Shown piece by piece: positions 4,659 through 16,576 of a DNA stretch of 64,000 nucleotides; positions within the stretch are counted from its first letter, which is position 1; each line of letters begins with the position of its first letter. The position numbers and the translations under genes were made by a program. This DNA comes from Sphingomonas hankyongi (lineage in GTDB: Bacteria; Pseudomonadota; Alphaproteobacteria; Sphingomonadales; Sphingomonadaceae): contig NZ_JAMGBE010000002.1 in assembly GCF_023516575.1 (NCBI RefSeq), positions 124,001 to 188,000 of the forward strand. The letters run 5' to 3'. Below the pieces are notes generated by a model. It saw only the letters and a program-made list of their open reading frames with translations. It was not told the origin of the DNA and made no database searches.

Positions 4659-5192
4659 ATGCATCGCCTGTTCGTCGCCATCCGCCCGCCCGAGCATATC
4701 CGCGACCTGCTGATCGACGCGATGGACGATAGTCCCGACTTCCGCTGGCAGGAGGATGAGCAGCTCCACCTCACCTTGCGTTTCGTGGGCGAAGTCGATC
4801 GGCCGGTCGCGAACGACCTGGCCGACGCCCTGTCGCGCATTCGCGCCGAGCCTTTTGAGCTGCGCATTCGCGGGGTTGGCCGTTTCGAGCAGCGCAACTC
4901 CGGCGCCTTGTGGGCCAGCGTCGAGCCAAAGGATCCGGTCGCTGCCCTGGCCGCAAAGGTCGAGCGGGTCTGTCAGCAAGTCGGCCTCGAGCCCGAGCGG
5001 CGCGCCTTCCATCCGCACATCACGCTTGCACGTTGGAAAGGTCGCCGGACGCTCGAGGTCCACGACTTCATCGAACGGCATGCAGGACTCGTCTCGGAAC
5101 CCTTTCCGGTGGACAATTTCACTTTGTTCGAAAGCCAGCTGTCGCGTCACGGCGCGCGCTACGAAGAGGTTGCCGAATATCCGCCCGGGTGA
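4659..5192 (+). CDS. thpR: RNA 2',3'-cyclic phosphodiesterase ThpR
   Basis: 177 aa, the usual length of the ThpR/LigT branch of the 2H phosphoesterases, which open RNA 2',3'-cyclic phosphates. Both catalytic HxTx motifs are visible: LHLTLRFVGEV (about residue 32) and HPHITLARWK (about residue 115). The opening MHRLFVAIRPPEHI is typical. ATG 4659 follows the stop of the Nudix gene by 2 nt, indicating translational coupling. Confidence 0.92.
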   Translation: MHRLFVAIRPPEHIRDLLIDAMDDSPDFRWQEDEQLHLTLRFVGEVDRPVANDLADALSRIRAEPFELRIRGVGRFEQRNSGALWASVEPKDPVAALAAKVERVCQQVGLEPERRAFHPHITLARWKGRRTLEVHDFIERHAGLVSEPFPVDNFTLFESQLSRHGARYEEVAEYPPG

Positions 5193-5274
5193 AGGCGAAG
5201 GCGCGCGACGACGAGCGGCTAATCTAGGTCAAAATGTGAAACGGCCGAGCCTGGAATCCGTTTGTGAGCGCAAG

Positions 5275-5439
5275 ATGGCTGACGACCGAGATTATTTCCT
5301 CAGTCGCGCTGCGGAAGAAGAAGCCAAAGCCGCCGAAAGCGACAACGAAGCCGCCCAGGAAGCGCATTCAAGGCTTGCCGAATATTACCGCCGGACCGCC
5401 GCACACCGCGGCCCGAGACCGCTCCCAAAATCGGCCTGA
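5275..5439 (+). CDS. small conserved hypothetical protein (54 aa)
   Basis: 54 aa, very charged and predicted helical: an N-terminal DRDYFLSRAAEEEAKAA segment, then AHSRLAEYYRRTA. It resembles the 60-aa protein at 24720-24902 (DRVYYVRRAAEERAAAL ... AHLEMAEGYDRRL), so both seem members of one small sphingomonad family. The frame is open far upstream as a shadow of thpR, but ATG 5275 gives the family-like start. No function can be assigned. Confidence 0.6.
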   Translation: MADDRDYFLSRAAEEEAKAAESDNEAAQEAHSRLAEYYRRTAAHRGPRPLPKSA

Positions 5440-5457
5440 CCCGGGAGCATCCGATCT

Positions 5458-6411
5458 TCAATCAGGCTGCTTCGCGCGTGCGTCGCCGTCCGTCCGAATG
5501 AACTTCGTCATGCGCTTGGCGAGATCGCCTCGATGCGCTCCGGCGACATACATGTCGGAGTAACTGTAGAGGGCGCGCAGATAGGCGAGGTCCCATTCGG
5601 TCAGGCTGGCGGGCGCCGGCCTCCCGGTCCGCGCGTCATCGAGCAAGGTGAGGATCGTCGGCGCAGGTTGCGTTGCTCCAGCCTGCAGCTTGGTGCGGGC
5701 GAACAGCTGCATCGCCGCGAAGTCGGCGAGCTGAGTGAGGTTAGAGCCTCCGGCTGCCCGTCCGTCGACGACCAGGACCGAGATGTCGAAGCCGATCCGC
5801 AGCGGATTCAGGATGCGCGAAATCGGTGCCCCGACATTGTCGATTGCCGATCCAGGGGACATTTCGACTTTTGCCGCCTCGTTCGGATTTGAAAGTCTGG
5901 CAATCCTGTTTCGAGCCAGCCCTCGACCGTCGGAGCCGCGATAAGCCAGCACCTGCCAGGACGTCGCCGCTTCGGTGCTGTGAACGAGCTGCCTTATCTC
6001 GCCGTCGGTCAGCTCGCTTCCCCACAGGATTGAATCCGATTTCCTCCAGTCCGCCAGGAGCTTGGCCTTGTCGGGCGCTACGTAAAGGAGTGCGTTCGCA
6101 GAGCATTGCTCATCGGCAACCTTCATGCCCGCTGCCGCAGCTACTCGCCGCATGCGCTGCTCCACGAACTCGTTCGATCGCTCGCCGAGACCTGCCACGT
6201 ACGGACACACTGGGTCGTAGAATCGAGCAAGCTGCTTGTCGGCGGACGGGATTGCCACAGAACCAACGAAACCGCGCATTGCCTGCGCCGGGTTCCGTTG
6301 TCCGGTAACCAGGATGTCGCCCGACTGCGCCGTTTCCGGCTCCGAAGGAGGCGCCGCGGCGATCAACACCAATGCAGCGAGCGAAACGAGAGCCTTGGTT
6401 AAAGAATGCAT
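5458..6411 (-). CDS. exported protein of unknown function
   Basis: 317 aa. ATG 6411 has an AGGGG ribosome site 6 nt upstream and opens a signal peptide (MHSLTKALVSLAALVLIAAAP). The mature part starts with a SGDILVTGQR motif, often seen after signal peptides in sphingomonad outer-membrane or periplasmic proteins, followed by a PVCPYVAGL segment and the cysteine in ADEQCSANAL, which may form a disulfide. No enzymatic motif is recognised. It is convergent with the small gene at 5275. Confidence 0.72.
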   Translation of the reverse strand: MHSLTKALVSLAALVLIAAAPPSEPETAQSGDILVTGQRNPAQAMRGFVGSVAIPSADKQLARFYDPVCPYVAGLGERSNEFVEQRMRRVAAAAGMKVADEQCSANALLYVAPDKAKLLADWRKSDSILWGSELTDGEIRQLVHSTEAATSWQVLAYRGSDGRGLARNRIARLSNPNEAAKVEMSPGSAIDNVGAPISRILNPLRIGFDISVLVVDGRAAGGSNLTQLADFAAMQLFARTKLQAGATQPAPTILTLLDDARTGRPAPASLTEWDLAYLRALYSYSDMYVAGAHRGDLAKRMTKFIRTDGDARAKQPD

Positions 6412-6629
6412 ACAGAACCCCTGACGCAATGAATTTACCTAGGGATCGAAGAGCCGTCACCGTCGTCACCAACCGACGGGTGATCTGAGACGCTATTGCG
6501 TCCATCTGTTCGACCAATGCGTCATTGGATCGACGAACGCTCACTACGCGCTCCATTCGCGAGGCGAGAATTCTGTGATTAGAAGGATTTTGGTTATGCC
6601 CTTGAGGAAGGGTAGCGGAAGGGGGAAAC

Positions 6630-7025
6630 ATGCCGGTCGAACTCAGGATACTTGCGTGGGGCGCTTTGTTGCTTGTCGTCCACATCTTCACGGCGACGCG
6701 CTTCAAGACCGCGCAATATGGCCGCAAATGGAATGCCGGAGCGCGCGACGAGGCCCTCGCTCCGCCTTCTCCCATTACGGGCCGGACGATGCGCGCGCAG
6801 GCGAACTTCCAGGAGACCTTCCCGATCGCCATCGTCGCCCTGCTCGGCGTCGTGCTCGCAGACCGGACGAACGACATGACGGCGCTAGGCGGTTGGATCT
6901 GGCTCGGGGCGCGCGTCGTTTACTTGCCGCTTTACGCGGCCGGCATTCCGGTCATCCGAACCGTCGTTTTCGGCATCAGCATGGTGGGCCTTGGACTGGT
7001 GCTGGCGCCACTGTTCGCCGCATAG
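6630..7025 (+). CDS. MAPEG family membrane protein
   Basis: 131 aa with four hydrophobic helices, the size and layout of MAPEG proteins (membrane-associated eicosanoid/glutathione metabolism). Family segments include RANFQETFPIAIVALL in helix 2 and the GARVVYLPLYAAGIP segment in helix 3. Bacterial members may act as glutathione transferases or peroxidases, but the activity is not proven by sequence. A GC-rich hairpin at 7030-7055 lies right behind the stop. Confidence 0.85.
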   Translation: MPVELRILAWGALLLVVHIFTATRFKTAQYGRKWNAGARDEALAPPSPITGRTMRAQANFQETFPIAIVALLGVVLADRTNDMTALGGWIWLGARVVYLPLYAAGIPVIRTVVFGISMVGLGLVLAPLFAA

Positions 7026-7029
7026 GAAA

Positions 7030-7055
7030 GGGGAGCCGTACGGGCACGGCTCCCC
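7030..7055. terminator. bidirectional hairpin terminator between convergent genes
   Basis: A perfect 10-bp stem (GGGGAGCCGT / ACGGCTCCCC) with a 6-nt loop lies between the MAPEG gene and the M13 peptidase gene. On the minus strand it is followed by a short pyrimidine run (CTTTCC); on the plus strand there is no T tract. It probably ends both transcripts. Confidence 0.65.
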
Positions 7056-7090
7056 CCGTCTGGGCCGAAGCCCAGGGCAATTCGATGGCG

Positions 7091-9142
7091 CTACCAGAGG
7101 CGGACGCGCCTCTCCGGCGGAATGTAGAACTTCGACTTCGGGTCGATCTTGAACGCATTGTACCAGGCGTCGAGGTTCCGAAGCGGCCCGATGATGCGGT
7201 AACGCCGCGGGCTGTGCGGGTCGCTCGCGACCTGCGTCTTGATCGCATCGTCGCGCTGCTCGCCGCGCCATGCCTGCGCATAGGCCAGGAAGAAGCGCTG
7301 GTCGCCGGTCAGGCCGTCGACCACCGGCGCTTCCTTGCCGCCAAGCGCCATCTTGTAGGCCTCGTACGCGACCTCGAGACCGGACATGTCGCCGATATTC
7401 TCGCCCATGGTCAGGTCGCCGTTGATGAAGACCCCCGGCGCCGCTTCATATGACGAATATTGCTTGCCGAGGTCGCTCGTCAGCGCCTTGAAGCGCGTCG
7501 CATCTTCCTTGGTCCACCAGTCGCGAACGGCGCCATTTTCGTCGATCTTGCGGCCCTGATCGTCAAACCCGTGCATGATCTCATGGCCGATGACGGCGCC
7601 GATCGATCCGTAATTGACCGCCGTGTCCGCTTCGGAATCGAAGAACGGCGGCTGCAGGATTCCGGCCGGGAACACGATCTTGTTCTCCAGCCCGCCATTG
7701 TAGGCGTTCACCGTCGCCGGGCTCATCGCCCACTTCTTGCGGTCGACCGGCTTATTGAGATCGCTGAGCTGATAGGCCCATTCGAATGCGCTGCTGCGCT
7801 TGACGTTCCCGTACAGGTCGCCGGCCTTCATCTCGAGGCCGGAGAAGTCGCGGAACTTCTCCGGGTAGCCCACCATGACGTCCATTCGGGCGAGCTTGGC
7901 GATCGCCGACTTCTTGGTCGCCGGAGACATCCAGCTATTGCCTTCGATGCGCTTGGCGGCGGCCTTCTTCAGGTTGCCGACCAGCTCTTCCATCATCGCC
8001 TTCGACTTTGGCGAGAAGTAGCGCTGGACATAGGTCTGTCCGAGCAGCTCGCCGAGGCGGTTGTCGACCTCCGTGATTCCACGCCGCCAGCGCGGGCGAA
8101 GCTCGGTCGCACCGCTCAGCGTCTTGGTGAACTCGAACTTGCTGTCGACGAAGCGCTTTGAAAGATAGTTGGACGCCTGGTCAGCGACCTTGAAGCGCTG
8201 CCACGTCTTCAGCGTCTCCAGCGGCGTCTTGTCGAATAGCACGGCCATCGCCTTGACCGCCGTGTTGTCCGCTACGATCATCTTCGGACTGCTTGCCTTG
8301 CTGGTCTCGAAGAAGCTCGCCCAGTCGAACCCGGGGGCGTAAGCCGCGAGCTGCGCCGCGTTCATTGGATTGTTGATCTTGTCGATGTCGCGCAGGTCCG
8401 CCTGGGCCCAGGACAGCTTTGCCATCTCGGTCTCAAGGATCATGATCTTGTCGGCTTCTGCCGAGGCGTTCGGCGTACCGATCATGCCGAGCGTGCGTTC
8501 GATATAGGCGCGATAGGCGTCGCGCTGCTTCTTGTACTTGTCGAGCAAGTAATAATCGCGATCCGGCAGGCCCAGTCCGCTCGTGCCGACGAACATCAGG
8601 TTCATCTTGGGATTGTCGGGATCCGGGCCGACGCCAACGCCGAACAAGGTGCTCCCGAAGTCCCACTGCGTCGACGCCATGTGGCGCAGGAATTCGGCCT
8701 TGTCCTTGATCGCCGAAACGCGATCGAGGTCGGCTTTGAGCGGCGCGGCGTCGAGTTGCTCCAGCCGTCCCTCATCCATGTAGCTTCCGTAGAACGCGCC
8801 GAGCTGGCTGTCCGCGGCGGCGCCCATCACGATTGCGCGCAGCTGCTCCTGGTTGCGGTCGGCAAGCTCGGACCCGACACCATTCTGCGACTTGTCGGCA
8901 GGGATGTCAGTCTCGTCCATCCACTTGCCCGCGGCATAGCGCTGGAAGTCGTCGCCCGGATTGACCGACAGGTCGCGCGTGCCGAGGTCGACGCCCCAGG
9001 TCCCGAAGTGAACGACGCGGGACGCGGCGGCGTTTGAACCGGCGCTGTCCTGTTGAGCCGCAGCCGGCGTTGCCGAGAGCGCCGTGCACGCCAGCAAAAG
9101 CGCGCCGGCTCGCGACAAGCGAGTAGAATCGAAGAGTGCCAT
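7091..9142 (-). CDS. M13 family zinc metallopeptidase (PepO/neprilysin-like), exported
   Basis: 683 aa, normal for M13. A signal peptide (LSRAGALLLACTALSATPAAAQ) precedes the domain, which starts at TWGVDLGTRDLSVNPGDDFQRYAAGKW. The zinc site is HEIMH at residues 520-524, followed by GFDDQGR and the third ligand in ENIGDMSGLEVAY. The substrate-binding NAYNGG and the FPAGILQPPFF segment are also present. The frame opens with a TTG four codons earlier, but ATG 9142 has a GGGG ribosome site at the right distance. It should cleave short peptides in the periplasm. Confidence 0.92.
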   Translation of the reverse strand: MALFDSTRLSRAGALLLACTALSATPAAAQQDSAGSNAAASRVVHFGTWGVDLGTRDLSVNPGDDFQRYAAGKWMDETDIPADKSQNGVGSELADRNQEQLRAIVMGAAADSQLGAFYGSYMDEGRLEQLDAAPLKADLDRVSAIKDKAEFLRHMASTQWDFGSTLFGVGVGPDPDNPKMNLMFVGTSGLGLPDRDYYLLDKYKKQRDAYRAYIERTLGMIGTPNASAEADKIMILETEMAKLSWAQADLRDIDKINNPMNAAQLAAYAPGFDWASFFETSKASSPKMIVADNTAVKAMAVLFDKTPLETLKTWQRFKVADQASNYLSKRFVDSKFEFTKTLSGATELRPRWRRGITEVDNRLGELLGQTYVQRYFSPKSKAMMEELVGNLKKAAAKRIEGNSWMSPATKKSAIAKLARMDVMVGYPEKFRDFSGLEMKAGDLYGNVKRSSAFEWAYQLSDLNKPVDRKKWAMSPATVNAYNGGLENKIVFPAGILQPPFFDSEADTAVNYGSIGAVIGHEIMHGFDDQGRKIDENGAVRDWWTKEDATRFKALTSDLGKQYSSYEAAPGVFINGDLTMGENIGDMSGLEVAYEAYKMALGGKEAPVVDGLTGDQRFFLAYAQAWRGEQRDDAIKTQVASDPHSPRRYRIIGPLRNLDAWYNAFKIDPKSKFYIPPERRVRLW

Positions 9143-9219
9143 GAATTGCCCCAAATGATTGATTTGCCGACGCTAGTTGAAAGGCGCGAAGCTCGCCAGC
9201 CACCCCTGATCGACGAGCG

Positions 9220-11055
9220 TCAGGAGTCCGTCGACGAACCTCCCGGCGCGGTTCGCGCTTCGAGCTGCTTCAGGCGGGTTTCCAGGCTTTCGAACAATCG
9301 TTCGTAGCGGGACTCCCGCTCCTGGCGGCTGACAGCGACCTGCACTGCACGCGCAACGGAGTCCGCGATTTCCTCGATCGCGTCGCATTCGGCCTTGCCG
9401 AACAGGCTTCCGTCCGGGCGCGCACCGAGAAGGAGCCAGCCAACGCGCCCGTGGCCTTCGGCTTCGAGCGGGACGCGAACCGGGAAGAGTTCGTCCGAGC
9501 GGTCCCAATCGATGCCGTCGTGCGCGGGAGGTGCCCAGCTCCGCCACCATGTCTCGACCTCGGCGGCAGGAATGTCGCGGGCGTCGATGACCTCGTCGCG
9601 CGCGATCAGCGCGGCGCGTTGCGCCCGGACGCCTTCGATCACGCTATCCAACGTAGCGCCCGCGATCTGTTCGAGACCTGCCGTCTCGCGGAGATCCCCG
9701 ACCAACGGAGGCAGGCCGTAGCGGAGGCGATACAGCGCTTTCTGGAATCTGCGCTCTGCCCAACGCTGCGCGCGGTTGTGCATCGGGGCAATGGCGACCG
9801 CGGCGAGCGCCGCGCCCACGCCGCCGGCGAACCCGCCGATATTCTGGCCGAGATATTCCTGGCCGATCAGCTCGATGATTTTCTGGCTGCCCGCGAAAAG
9901 CGCCACGAAGCCAATGGTGAGTACGCCATACGCAACTGAACGGCCAATCACGGCGTCGGCGTCGTAAAGCCGGTACCGCAGGATCGACACGATCAGCCCC
10001 AGCGACATGACGCAGAAGACCGCAGACAATAACGGCCCGCCGATCGCATATTCCCAGGCAACCCAACGTGGGTCTTGAGCCTGCCATGCAGCTGCCGCGA
10101 TCTGTCCCAGCAACAGCGCGCCCATCAGGATCATGCCGACCCCGAGCCCAAAAAAGGCCCAGCGCAGTTGGAGGCGCTCCATCCCCGGTCCGACAGCCCG
10201 ATAGCGGCTAATGAGGACAATGAGGGCGGAAAGGACGACTACCAATCCGACGACCGGCGAATCGATCAGGTACGTTGGAAGGAGAAGCAGGAACGGAATG
10301 GCCGTCCAGCGCGGCTCGAAACGGCCGGAGGGGAAAGCGAAGATAGCGACAAAAAGCAGTGCGGTCGCCGCGGCCCCAATGATGTTGACTGCGTCGACTC
10401 CGATTCCCAACATGTCGCTGTTGGTCGCGATTCCAGCAAACAGCAGAAACGAGAGCGACAGGCACGCGGGAACCACTTCCCGGCGACGTCTCAGGAACAA
10501 CAGGACCGCCGCCGGGATGAAGAGCGCTGGCCTTAATAAGGACCCGACAATCGACAGCGCCCTCGCCAGGGGAAAGCTTACGCCTGCGTCGCGAAACCGC
10601 TCACGCTCGAAGGCCATGCTACGCCTAAGCGTTATGTCGAAAATGCGACCGTCTGACTTGCGAATTGTGAAGGCCGTCGGTGATCCGTCAGGCTTTACGA
10701 CATGCGCTCTGGCTTCGGCTCGCGCGGCGGACTTGGGGACCGTCCAGCCGTCGATCGCAATCACATAGTCACCCGCCTCCAGCCCGCTCGCTCGAGCCGG
10801 CCCGGACATGACGCTGTACACTTGCAGCCCACGAGAATCCTCGGCGGTCGCGAAACCGTAGGGCGACCACATGGTCGGAGTCGAAATCACTATGTAGGCG
10901 GCGATCCCCGCACCGATCAGCGAAAGCGGAAAGACGATCGCCCACACCACCGTGTAAAGCGTCAGCCACTTGCCCTTGAGGTCGGGCAGCCGCTCGGGCA
11001 GGCGCAGCCGCCACCGGCGCGGCGCAGGTTCGGCAGTTCCTACGGCTGTCGCCAT
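9220..11055 (-). CDS. PDZ / multi-TM / GAF-like membrane sensor protein without a kinase domain
   Basis: 611 aa. After a basic N-terminus there is a TM helix (TVVWAIVFPLSLIGAGIAAYIV), a PDZ-like domain (GLQVYSVMSGPARASGLEAGDYVIAIDG, about residues 75-150), then about seven TM helices to residue 410. A soluble GAF-like part follows (FPVRVPLEAEGHGRVGWLLLGARPDGS), ending in a coiled coil (YERLFESLETRLKQLEAR). This arrangement matches the sensory half of certain histidine kinases and PP2C-type regulators, but no DHp, HATPase or phosphatase domain follows. The stop is genuine and the next gene is 78 nt away. It may signal through a partner protein. Confidence 0.7.
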   Translation of the reverse strand: MATAVGTAEPAPRRWRLRLPERLPDLKGKWLTLYTVVWAIVFPLSLIGAGIAAYIVISTPTMWSPYGFATAEDSRGLQVYSVMSGPARASGLEAGDYVIAIDGWTVPKSAARAEARAHVVKPDGSPTAFTIRKSDGRIFDITLRRSMAFERERFRDAGVSFPLARALSIVGSLLRPALFIPAAVLLFLRRRREVVPACLSLSFLLFAGIATNSDMLGIGVDAVNIIGAAATALLFVAIFAFPSGRFEPRWTAIPFLLLLPTYLIDSPVVGLVVVLSALIVLISRYRAVGPGMERLQLRWAFFGLGVGMILMGALLLGQIAAAAWQAQDPRWVAWEYAIGGPLLSAVFCVMSLGLIVSILRYRLYDADAVIGRSVAYGVLTIGFVALFAGSQKIIELIGQEYLGQNIGGFAGGVGAALAAVAIAPMHNRAQRWAERRFQKALYRLRYGLPPLVGDLRETAGLEQIAGATLDSVIEGVRAQRAALIARDEVIDARDIPAAEVETWWRSWAPPAHDGIDWDRSDELFPVRVPLEAEGHGRVGWLLLGARPDGSLFGKAECDAIEEIADSVARAVQVAVSRQERESRYERLFESLETRLKQLEARTAPGGSSTDS

Positions 11056-11195: not shown

Positions 11196-14174
<2,979 letters not shown>

Positions 14175-14215
14175 TAGTTGCTACGCCGCTTGACTAACAC
14201 GCGTTTATAATTTCT

Positions 14216-14326
14216 GGTTATGCCATGCACGTGTTGTGCTAACCGGCGTCCGGAAGATCACCTTGCAGTTTGACAACGGCTGTCAAACGCCCTTCGTAAA
14301 CGCATCCCTGACTATCGGGCGCCGGT
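14216..14326 (+). ncRNA. candidate structured RNA in front of the reverse-transcriptase gene
   Basis: The 175 nt between uvrA and the reverse transcriptase can form three stems by eye. Hairpin 1 (14216-14244) pairs GGTTA with TAACC and GCAC with GTGC around a 6-nt bulge. A long-range stem pairs ACCGGCGTCC (14242-14251) with GGGCGCCGGT (14317-14326), ten pairs with one G-U; three pairs compete with hairpin 1. Inside it is a perfect 8-bp hairpin, GTTTGACA / TGTCAAAC (14268-14288, loop ACGGC). A TATAAT lies at 14206-14211, but no good -35 box is 16-18 nt upstream. Several defence reverse transcriptases (DRT2, DRT9) and all retrons use a non-coding RNA encoded directly upstream. The RNA itself is inferred; ends are approximate. 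Confidence 0.45.
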
Positions 14327-14349
14327 GACCCTCTTTAGGTTACCAGTAC

Positions 14350-15912
14350 GTGCGTGAAGTCATCGAAGAAGCCATCATATTTAAGTCCCGCGCCATCTTG
14401 CGAGACCAGCGGATTGCACGTGCGACCCGCCTAAAATACGCTGACAGATTCTCAAAAAGGACGGGTGCGTTCGCGGGTCAGCCCAACCTTATCACACCAC
14501 GTTGGTGGGGCTTCCACCCACACTTCGACCCTACCTACTGCATACGTCATGCGGAATATCTCGCGAAGACCATTTGGCAGCGCCTTGTCTCAGGCGACTA
14601 TCAACCGGTCCCTGCGGTTCAGTTTGACGTGCCCAAGAAGGATGGCTCCTTTCGCGAAATCATGGGCTTCGCCATTCCCGATGCCGCAGTAGCCAACGTA
14701 TTCCATCGATCTATCACGAAGCGAAACCTGAACCTGTTTTCTAGTCATAGTTTCGCCTATCGTCCTGACCAGAATGTATTCGACGCCATTCTGCATCTGC
14801 AAAGATCAATGAAACATCCGAAATCGTACGTGATACAGTACGATTTTCGTAAGTACTTCGACACTATCGACCATGCGTACATAGAAAGTCTCATCAGCGA
14901 CCGAGACCTATTCCTAATAACAAAGGCGGAGCGAACCGCCATTAGAGCGTTTCTCTCGCATGCGTTCGCTCACGTGAATGACTATCCGCAGAGAGATTTT
15001 ACCATACGAGCGAAGGGCGTTCCGCAGGGCTGCTCGCTTTCGCTCTTTTTGTCGAACGCCGCGGCCCACGAACTCGATTTGGAACTGGAGCGTCAAAACG
15101 GCACATTTGCGCGCTTCGCCGATGACGTCGTCGCCGTAGCGCATTCTTACACCGACGCGCGGAACATAGCTCTGCAGTTCAGGACGCACTGCAAAAGAGC
15201 AGGCATTTCCATCAATTATGAGAAATCGCCCGGAATAAAACTACTCGACCGGGGCAAGGGCGGCGATATCCGCACATTCTTCGTAGATCAGGATGATGGC
15301 GGACCAATCGAAATGATTAAGGACCTAGATTACTTAGGTCACAATCTTTCAGCGCATGGCGTGACGCTTAGCAGCGGAGCGATCAAAAAGATCAAGCGCC
15401 GAGTCTCGGAGATAATTTACAAGCACCTCTTCCTTTATCGTCGGTCTGCTCCGAACCTGATTGATCCCAATCGTGTTGGTCCGGGCTTCTACGATTGGGA
15501 CTTGGTCACATGCGTGAACGAAATCCGTCGATATCTATATGGCGGTCTCAGGGAACAGCAGATCACGCCATTCCTGGAAGGCGAAGGCAAGCTTCCGTTT
15601 GTGAGAGGCCTTCTAGCATTCTATCCTCTGATAGATCGGCCGGCGGATCTGATCCGTCTCGACGGATGGCTCTCAAATGTGATGCATCGCGCAGTTCGGG
15701 AGCGCATCAAGGTCCTTCACGCTCTTGGTATCGTCCAGCAAGCCCTCACTAAAGAGCAACTCCTGAGCGGCGATTGGTATAACTATCCGGCGATCCTGAA
15801 CGACGTACGACTACCGAGCTTCGTTCGAGGGTGGCGTGCTGCAAGACGATATTATCTACGGTATGGGCTGAAGAGCATTGAGCCCCCGTCGTACTACAGT
15901 CTGCTCTACTGA
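14350..15912 (+). CDS. reverse transcriptase, unknown-group/defence-associated (UG/DRT) type
   Basis: 520 aa. RT motifs in order: template-grip region VPKKDGSFREI (94-104), motif A QYDFRKYFDTID (Asp165), motif B GVPQGCSLSLFLSN (223-236), motif C ARFADDVV (Asp258, Asp259), motif D GISINYEKS (285-293), motif E LDYLGHNL (327-334). About 185 further residues follow with no maturase, HNH or other domain I know. There is no retron VTG motif, no intron ends and no DGR repeats, which leaves the UG/Abi-like lineage, several members of which are phage-defence systems. The only in-frame start is GTG 14350; the frame closes at 14326-14328. Codon use and G+C differ clearly from uvrA, suggesting transfer. 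No partner gene is adjacent. The UG class cannot be named without alignment. Confidence 0.88.
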   Translation: MREVIEEAIIFKSRAILRDQRIARATRLKYADRFSKRTGAFAGQPNLITPRWWGFHPHFDPTYCIRHAEYLAKTIWQRLVSGDYQPVPAVQFDVPKKDGSFREIMGFAIPDAAVANVFHRSITKRNLNLFSSHSFAYRPDQNVFDAILHLQRSMKHPKSYVIQYDFRKYFDTIDHAYIESLISDRDLFLITKAERTAIRAFLSHAFAHVNDYPQRDFTIRAKGVPQGCSLSLFLSNAAAHELDLELERQNGTFARFADDVVAVAHSYTDARNIALQFRTHCKRAGISINYEKSPGIKLLDRGKGGDIRTFFVDQDDGGPIEMIKDLDYLGHNLSAHGVTLSSGAIKKIKRRVSEIIYKHLFLYRRSAPNLIDPNRVGPGFYDWDLVTCVNEIRRYLYGGLREQQITPFLEGEGKLPFVRGLLAFYPLIDRPADLIRLDGWLSNVMHRAVRERIKVLHALGIVQQALTKEQLLSGDWYNYPAILNDVRLPSFVRGWRAARRYYLRYGLKSIEPPSYYSLLY

Positions 15913-15934
15913 AGGCACATAGCTAGGAGAGCAG

Positions 15935-16576
15935 CTAAGCAGCCGCGTTCTGCACCAGCTTCACCACGACCTGCCGCAGCTCGGCCGGGCTCATTTCGCC
16001 GCCAACCACTTCGACATAACCTATTCCCGCGCGGCGCAGCGCTTCCTTCTTGACCGCATCGCGCGCGGCGGTCGCGTGCGCGCCCTTGAAGTGCGCCCCG
16101 CCCTGATATTCGATCGCGTGTAGCGGCCTGCACTCGTCATCGACGATCAGCAGGTCGACGCGCTTTGAGTTGATGCAGGCGTATGCGTCCTTGTCCGCGC
16201 TGCGCAGAATTTCGCCCAGGCTGACCTGCGCCATCACCTGCCAGCCGGGACGCATCTCCAGCACCATCTTGTCTATCGCCTTGAACAGCCGCGCCTCACT
16301 CTTGTTGAGCAACGCCTGCGCCATGAAGTCGGCGTTCATCACCGTGCGCAGCTGGTCCGCCGCGTCGGGCACTTTCTCCGGCAGCCTGTCATGCTTCGGC
16401 ATCCAAGGGCCAGCCTTCAACTCGCCCTTGCGGCCCCAACCCTTCCGGCGTCGCCATTTCTGACGATTGGGCCACGCGACGAAGCGCTCGACATAAATCC
16501 CGATCATCGCGCCCACGAACAGGAGCGCGATGAGCAGGATGGGCTTATCGATCAGCGCTGCGATTTCAGGCGGCAT
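15935..16576 (-). CDS. DUF2726 protein with restriction-endonuclease-like fold, membrane-anchored
   Basis: 213 aa. One N-terminal TM helix (PILLIALLFVGAMIGIYV) is followed by a basic linker and a DUF2726-type domain: LLNKSEARLFKAIDKMV, QVSLGEILR, then VDLLIVDDECRPLHAIEYQG and a run of AARDAVKKEALRRAGI. The D-x-(14)-E-Y-Q-G arrangement resembles the PD-(D/E)xK nuclease core, so a nucleic-acid role is possible but unproven. The gene faces the reverse transcriptase tail to tail with 22 nt between. Its G+C is like the rest of the chromosome, so it probably belongs to the host backbone, not the insert. Confidence 0.75.
   Translation of the reverse strand: MPPEIAALIDKPILLIALLFVGAMIGIYVERFVAWPNRQKWRRRKGWGRKGELKAGPWMPKHDRLPEKVPDAADQLRTVMNADFMAQALLNKSEARLFKAIDKMVLEMRPGWQVMAQVSLGEILRSADKDAYACINSKRVDLLIVDDECRPLHAIEYQGGAHFKGAHATAARDAVKKEALRRAGIGYVEVVGGEMSPAELRQVVVKLVQNAAA

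Follow-up and report, generated by a model that had tools for sequence, protein, structure and literature searches.

The reverse transcriptase (RT) gene that follows uvrA in the 64,000-nucleotide stretch of Sphingomonas hankyongi DNA analyzed here (the window) raises two questions: whether the enzyme belongs to a known class of defense-associated RTs or, as the initial annotation allowed, to a possible new one, and what it copies. The features of the locus are collected in Table 1.

Table 1. Features of the RT locus and its flanks, in window coordinates
Feature	Position	Strand	Evidence or remark
uvrA, left neighbor, bounding the variable site on that side	11196..14174	+	NCBIfam UvrA equivalog, 1561 bits
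TTGACT, candidate -35 box of the ncRNA	14190..14195	+	TTGAC spacing in related loci
ncRNA, 111 nt modeled	14221..14331	+	Match at 96.4 bits (E 5.7e-23) to covariance model R2, from which the window had been left out
SL1 hairpin GCAC/GUGC	14227..14239	+	100% of cells paired; two-sided changes in 2/4 pairs; also in single-sequence fold
Closing stem, 5' strand	14242..14252	+	Pairs with 14316-14326; 85.3% of cells paired; two-sided changes in 5/11 pairs; also in single-sequence fold
Inner stem UUGC, 5' strand	14263..14266	+	Pairs with 14296-14299; 92.3% of cells paired; zero two-sided changes
Inner hairpin GUUUGAC/GUCAAAC	14268..14288	+	63.3% of cells paired; two-sided changes in 5/7 pairs; single-sequence fold differs
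Template loop ACGCAUCCCUGACUAU	14300..14315	+	Site of U4 in canonical DRT9, before the closing strand
Closing stem, 3' strand	14316..14326	+	Pairs with 14242..14252
RT gene	14350..15912	+	520 aa, GTG start; UG28/DRT9 lineage (PADLOC Drt9, PDB DRT9 chains, fold 9vma)
Catalytic FADD, residues 256-259	15115..15126	+	YADD in SenDRT9
C-terminal tail YYSLLY (Y515, Y516, Y520), candidate priming tyrosines	15892..15909	+	Tail alignment
DUF2726 gene, right neighbor	15935..16576	-	Pfam E 1.3e-19; GC 0.636, window-like

Lineage and predicted fold of the reverse transcriptase

The open reading frame and the RT motifs quoted for it in the initial annotation were borne out, with Pfam RVT_1 matching at E 1.3e-20, and a single match to the window RT occurs in its own 2.55-Mb genome (E <= 0.001). 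Its placement in the UG/DRT lineage, outside the group II introns and retrons, also stood: the group II intron maturase model scores 126 bits against a curated cut-off of 300, and none of three retron models exceeds 44.7 bits, where the cut-off is 235. A CRISPR-associated RT was rejected as well, the corresponding profile matches being far weaker than that of Drt9. The PADLOC Drt9 model (UG28, PDLC03766) matches at E 4.6e-156, aligning residues 1-516 of 520 with profile positions 1-485 of 488, and is followed by a generic RT model (1.1e-32) and by UG19 as the next DRT/UG-class model (7.4e-20). In a sequence search of the PDB, DRT9 chains come first (E 6.9e-67), and a group II intron RT follows at 2.6e-22.

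The AlphaFold model of the window RT (63 rows; pLDDT 91.2; residues 305-314 and 516-520 are of low confidence) has an N-terminal helix at residues 2-38, and its best Foldseek matches are DRT9 entries (9vma, TM 0.87). With VIA-align, 9vma reaches Z 35.9 with an rmsd of 2.2 over 484 residues, and the first non-DRT9 entry Z 24.9. Model residues 1-517 align on 9vma 3-496, including the C-terminal part that had been described as carrying no known domain; because the best structural matches are DRT9 entries, these residues are assigned to the DRT9 fold. By sequence and predicted fold, the window RT belongs to the UG28/DRT9 lineage, and the earlier suggestion of an unassigned class gives way to this assignment.

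Of 164 relatives found, the best 80 were kept. The tree of 79 RTs, which contains UG28-like relatives only and is midpoint-drawn without an outgroup, separates two deep sets of 31 and 48 rows (SH-aLRT 100). The smaller set, here the window's branch, consists of Alphaproteobacteria except for one Mailhella and two viral contigs, and in it the window RT groups with L039 (68% identical), L040, L041, L057 and L064; the larger, canonical set includes Gammaproteobacteria, Bacillota, Bacteroidota, Myxococcota and others. Across alignment A4 (63 rows, window counted), A257, D258 and D259 are invariant, while the first position of the FADD motif is F in 15 and Y in 4 of the 19 rows from the window's branch. 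A tyrosine lies within the last 16 residues in 31/31 rows of the window's branch and 47/48 of the other; in SenDRT9, priming probably starts from the tail residues Y496/Y498 (PMC12483538).

Among 71 genomes of the genus, eight match the Drt9 model (E <= 0.001), strongly only in the window's own genome, the other seven at 1.1e-18 or weaker. In the family, the window protein matches 26 of 397 genomes (E <= 0.001), with strong matches (<1e-70) in four of the 397, one of them in two pieces. At E <= 1e-40 the Drt9 model was found in 2/385 genomes of a class sample and 5/398 of a phylum sample, at 1e-60 in one of 105 genomes from the family of G577, and at 1e-50 in eight of 345 from the family of G891.

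Nine phage records gave partial matches, below 60% identity. Scans of viral contigs with alignments A1 and A5 recovered representatives of both branches and no member close to the window RT, and with the window protein alone as query no relative was confirmed there. Members of the window's branch (L119-L122) lie on contigs that IMG/VR classes as viral and are perhaps prophage cargo. Matches came from 3043 plasmid records; among the matches listed, nearly all are group II intron RTs, and full DRT9 relatives occur in Thioclava and Hymenobacter. The Thioclava plasmid member belongs to the window's branch (L033, 3001-5131), and the gene after it is annotated as SLATT, an arrangement shared with DRT10 and part of the DRT9 systems. 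In Zymomonas (L068, also L004/L027) and Mesorhizobium (L069), a stop or frameshift interrupts the RT gene. Near the RT start of L050 and L065, the frame seems fused to remains of the ncRNA from which the template part is gone, so these two copies are likely decayed.

The upstream ncRNA and its template loop

The window RT had been described as standing alone, yet a structured ncRNA lies directly upstream, and the locus is therefore an RT-ncRNA pair rather than a lone RT. The sequence upstream of the RT is conserved among the window's kin, TTGAC precedes an ATGYRCG-like ncRNA start by exactly 35 nt in five of eight loci inspected (window counted), and the match to the ncRNA model is unique in the window's genome (E <= 0.001). 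In a seven-row alignment (A6), the proposed 26 pairs are standard in 82.6%, compared with 73.1 after shuffling (0/500 as high), and 12 of the 26 show two-sided changes, compared with 7.7 in shuffles (3/500 as high). The covariation score of 0.392 stands against 0.223 in shuffled alignments (0/500 as high) and 0.070 to 0.168 in slid controls, and further pair types number 27 against 22.7 (32/500 as high). The window's ncRNA has a folding z of -3.32, with 1/200 shuffles equally low; in its fold of lowest energy, SL1 and the closing stem are retained, but the inner part and some of the template loop are paired differently.

When searched against 20 left-out loci of the branch, covariance model R1 placed four correctly (L064 at 4.5e-5, L033 at 0.011, L056 at 0.036 and L069 at 0.47) and missed 16, and it found 0/14 canonical loci. 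Because R1 misses most, Rhodobacter-type and canonical loops were aligned by stem position and motif, using typed anchors. A similar layout is seen in the folds of 14 canonical ncRNAs: hairpin, closing stem, inner hairpin, template and closing strand, with an extra small hairpin around U4. Plan, position and CUUACU-like context, not one model, thus underlie the proposed correspondence of canonical with window-type loops.

At the place where canonical DRT9 has U4, the template loop of the window reads CCCUGACUAU, and T runs longer than three are absent from 14175-14349. Canonical loops are mostly CUUACUUUUA or near it. In the published accounts, the U tract is called 'universally conserved' in DRT9 and is copied into poly-dA (PMC12483538), and the four U's are called 'highly conserved' (PMC12489045); the universal claim was based on 201 systems in a covariance model that had been grown from SenDRT9, while the DRT9 tree in the same paper holds 438 homologues (PMC12483538).

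Of the canonical ncRNAs that can be read, 45 of 46 have U4 or a longer tract in the template context: a context pattern recognizes 41/48, and visual inspection adds L067, L070, L091 and L095, where the surroundings of U4 differ slightly. The two unreadable entries (L036 and L071) represent a single locus truncated by a contig end, and canonical L087 has U3 instead of U4. In the window's branch, U4 adjoins the closing strand in one of 25 placed loops (L062), and CCCUKACU is present in 19 of the 25. After CCCUKAC, the loops continue with UAUC (window and L057), UCUC, UCUA, UCUU, UUUA, UUUC, UUAG, UUCG, UACC or UAUU, and UUU is kept in three of them (L043, L049 and L059). In L042, U5 and U4 lie upstream, and no closing stem was found, leaving its ncRNA unplaced.

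The 25 loops were drawn from 33 listed loci, with L044, L048, L058, L060, L141, L142 and L086 left out as near copies and L042 for want of a stem; L050 and L065 (RT frame fused to apparent ncRNA remains) and the fragments L037, L038, L061, L115 and L125 were unused. All 25 loop edges come from typed anchors, which in L040, L041, L051, L052, L064 and L068 differ from or refine the best helix given by the script, and for the window, L039 and L057 the loop was cut back as far as the first solid pair of the closing stem. Under a simpler 34-nt rule, T4 is found in 43/48 canonical loci versus 4/25 of the window's branch, three of those four off the closing strand, though the rule is loose: drawn at random from the upstream DNA of canonical loci, 34% of 34-nt stretches contain T4. 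In the window's branch the canonical context pattern appears in L064 and L068, far upstream (-174 and -176). The U4 contrast coincides with one split in the tree and may go back to a single event; kinship is ignored in the Fisher p value.

In SenDRT9, deletion of one U or replacement of U4 by C4, G4 or A4 abolishes defense, and A4 yields mainly poly-dT (PMC12483538), which indicates that the base in the loop sets the product. Since the window's loop has CCCUGACUAU in place of U4, poly-dA synthesis by the published route is unlikely here. Given the likeness of CCCUKACU to the CUUACU context of canonical loops, the loop could also serve binding instead of templating.

The site downstream of uvrA

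The two neighbors of the RT gene had been taken for core genes. The left one is uvrA; the DUF2726 gene on the right is a variable neighbor rather than a fixed core gene, because a relative follows uvrA in just 6/20 longer stretches from the genus (tblastn), and tblastn found none in 11 genus loci that extend some 1.5 kb past uvrA. PADLOC gave no match for it. As a candidate partner of the system it was rejected, since tblastn over 155 loci (159 less the four of its own genome) returned L133 and L134 only, both of them genus loci near uvrA with other RTs.

The RT frame has a GC content of 0.524 versus 0.634 for the whole window, and the lowest-GC 1563-nt stretch of the window begins at 14201 (scan in 50-nt steps), which fits the expectation for acquired DNA; no convincing flanking repeats marking an insertion were found in 14100-16050. 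For a survey of the site, 20 stretches from the genus were used, G238 and G1137 being picked for a known RT and most others for good uvrA matches. A right-hand marker was located in 15 of the 20, one of the markers being weak, as a repetitive protein searched without masking, and the intervals measure 0.9 to 4.0 kb with GC contents of 0.49 to 0.63. The largest reading frames of 14 of these 15 stretches were scanned (L162 was left out), and seven of the 14 contain PADLOC matches (E <= 1e-5). Full-length cargo after uvrA comprises DRT8 in L160, UG20 in L161 and HEC-07 in L175, with weaker AAA, SIR2 or DndB-like matches in L164, L166, L167 and L173; a SIR2-STAND protein in L168 was seen by Pfam only, and the largest frames of L163, L165, L171, L172, L177 and L179 gave no matches.

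The site downstream of uvrA (window 14174-15935; L160-L179) looks like a cargo hotspot in the genus; the literature searched yielded no paper on an anti-phage defense hotspot involving uvrA. In Erythrobacter (L057), a DRT9 gene (4998-6560, 53% identical) lies beside the 3' end of a convergent uvrA (6609-9563), and its presence there suggests repeated insertion at the site. The company of such cargo after uvrA supports a defense role for the window RT by association only.

Alternative readings of the template and comparison with known systems

The reading we favor, and consider rather probable, is a two-part antiphage system in which an RT of the UG28/DRT9 lineage acts with its own upstream ncRNA, on a branch whose template differs from that of the DRT9 systems studied so far, the mechanism of which was published in 2025 (PMC12483538, PMC12489045). 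By homology with those systems, oligomerization, priming, templating, defense and abortive infection can be pictured as follows. The ncRNA would scaffold an RT oligomer, a C-terminal tyrosine would prime DNA synthesis, and the RT would copy the short ncRNA loop repeatedly, producing DNA joined to the RT itself. Phage factors that raise dNTPs or shield DNA would then allow the RT-made DNA to harm the infected cell. The predicted product would not be pure poly-dA, as other bases would be copied from the loop. The portions of the DRT9 literature searched contain no activity, product or phage data on members of the window's branch, and the literature searched yielded no paper on ncRNAs of defense-associated RTs in alphaproteobacteria.

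A broader proposition, on which we are evenly divided, extends this to the whole, mostly alphaproteobacterial branch: it would make no poly-dA, the conserved CCCUKACU and the varied bases after it would template mixed-sequence, perhaps short tandem-repeat, protein-linked DNA, and U4 would be a trait of one branch. If this is a deep DRT9 branch without U4, either poly-dA is not essential to DRT9 immunity or the branch writes another DNA, and the latter, if true, could show what the product sequence is for. The branch would offer natural template variants with a defined ncRNA, and it may bridge the homopolymer-making DRT9 and the tandem-repeat-making DRT10.

The strongest alternative, though we regard it as unlikely, is that the window encodes an ordinary DRT9 that makes poly-dA anyway, either because one to three U's suffice or because the RT itself selects dATP, so that changes in the loop are tolerated. 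The predicted fold, the tail tyrosines and the ncRNA plan all agree with the canonical systems, the base after CCCUKAC is U in every one of the 19 loops and is part of UUU in three, and canonical L087 has U3. However, loss of a single U ended defense by SenDRT9, where the loop base set the product (PMC12483538), and the window has UAUC at the U4 place and no T run above three just upstream of its RT.

Somewhat more doubtful is a DRT10-like realignment, in which an A-B-A' arrangement in the loop would give tandem-repeat DNA, for instance through CU-GA-CU (repeat AGTC) or AUC-CCUGACU-AUC in the window. The A element of DRT10 can be just 2 nt long (PMC12632851), and several loops that lack CCCUKACU contain a short element twice (UUACAGG in L054, GAUUA in L068, AAAUG in L064 and CUAC in L047). 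In a repeat test on 24 loops (L040, a near copy of L041, was excluded), the six without CCCUKACU exceed shuffles, at 4.67 versus 3.69 expected (p 0.011, range 0.008 to 0.012), but this subset was split off after inspection, the longest repeat over all 24 loops lies within shuffles (p 0.13 to 0.50), and so do the 18 CCCUKACU loops, which are of the window's kind (p 0.71 to 0.90). In the window's own loop the longest repeat is 3 nt (p 0.78 versus shuffles), and 2-nt repeats, such as CU-GA-CU, are indistinguishable from chance by this test. As a rule for the whole branch, A-B-A' was rejected, since the shuffles do not bear it out. The Mailhella loop (L054, upstream of 1913), with its two copies of UUACAGG 9 nt apart, is a striking A-B-A' candidate within the DRT9 lineage.

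It is improbable that the window holds a decaying copy in which the RT is intact, the template has drifted and function is lost. The branch does include broken RTs (L068/L004 and L069) and, in L050 and L065, RT frames that seem to continue into ncRNA remains, and a strong match is found in one of 71 genus genomes; against this, CCCUKACU is kept in 19/25 loops, the stems covary and the window's frame is open, which together argue for constraint. A new UG class outside DRT1-10, to which an identity of just 28-31% to solved DRT9 RTs and a deep branch of its own might point, is very improbable given the nearly full-length Drt9 profile match (E 4.6e-156) and the similar ncRNA plan.

Among the known systems, DRT2 (UG2) likewise pairs an RT with an upstream ncRNA, and a common ancestor of DRT2 and DRT9 has been reported (PMC12489045), but the Drt2 profile matches the window RT at only E 5.5e-18, and DRT2 has a template of about 120 nt (PMC12483538) in contrast to the 16-nt loop found here. 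DRT10 (UG17) combines an RT with an ncRNA whose template loop adjoins a stem-loop, and the way it synthesizes repeats from a protein primer may be analogous (PMC12632851). It differs in its profile (UG17 at E 5.9e-19 versus Drt9 at 4.6e-156 on the window RT), and in its SLATT partner, where the immediate neighbors of the window RT are uvrA and the DUF2726 gene; an A-B-A' pattern is not supported in loops of the window's kind.

The closest likeness is to DRT9 (SenDRT9, EcoDRT9; PDB 9nlv, 9vma, 9ioa), with which the window shares RT homology, predicted fold, N-terminal helix and C-terminal tyrosines, as well as an upstream ncRNA with SL1, closing stem, inner hairpin and a template ahead of the closing strand. 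In contrast to the solved RTs, the window RT, 28-31% identical to them, reads FADD in place of YADD and has a 14-residue insert near 303-320 that is common to L039, L041, L057 and L064; the canonical ncRNA fold places U4 in a small hairpin, and the U4 template is absent from the window. Judged by its template sequence, the window system is thus a DRT9 of known RT lineage with a differing template, and not a poly-dA DRT9.
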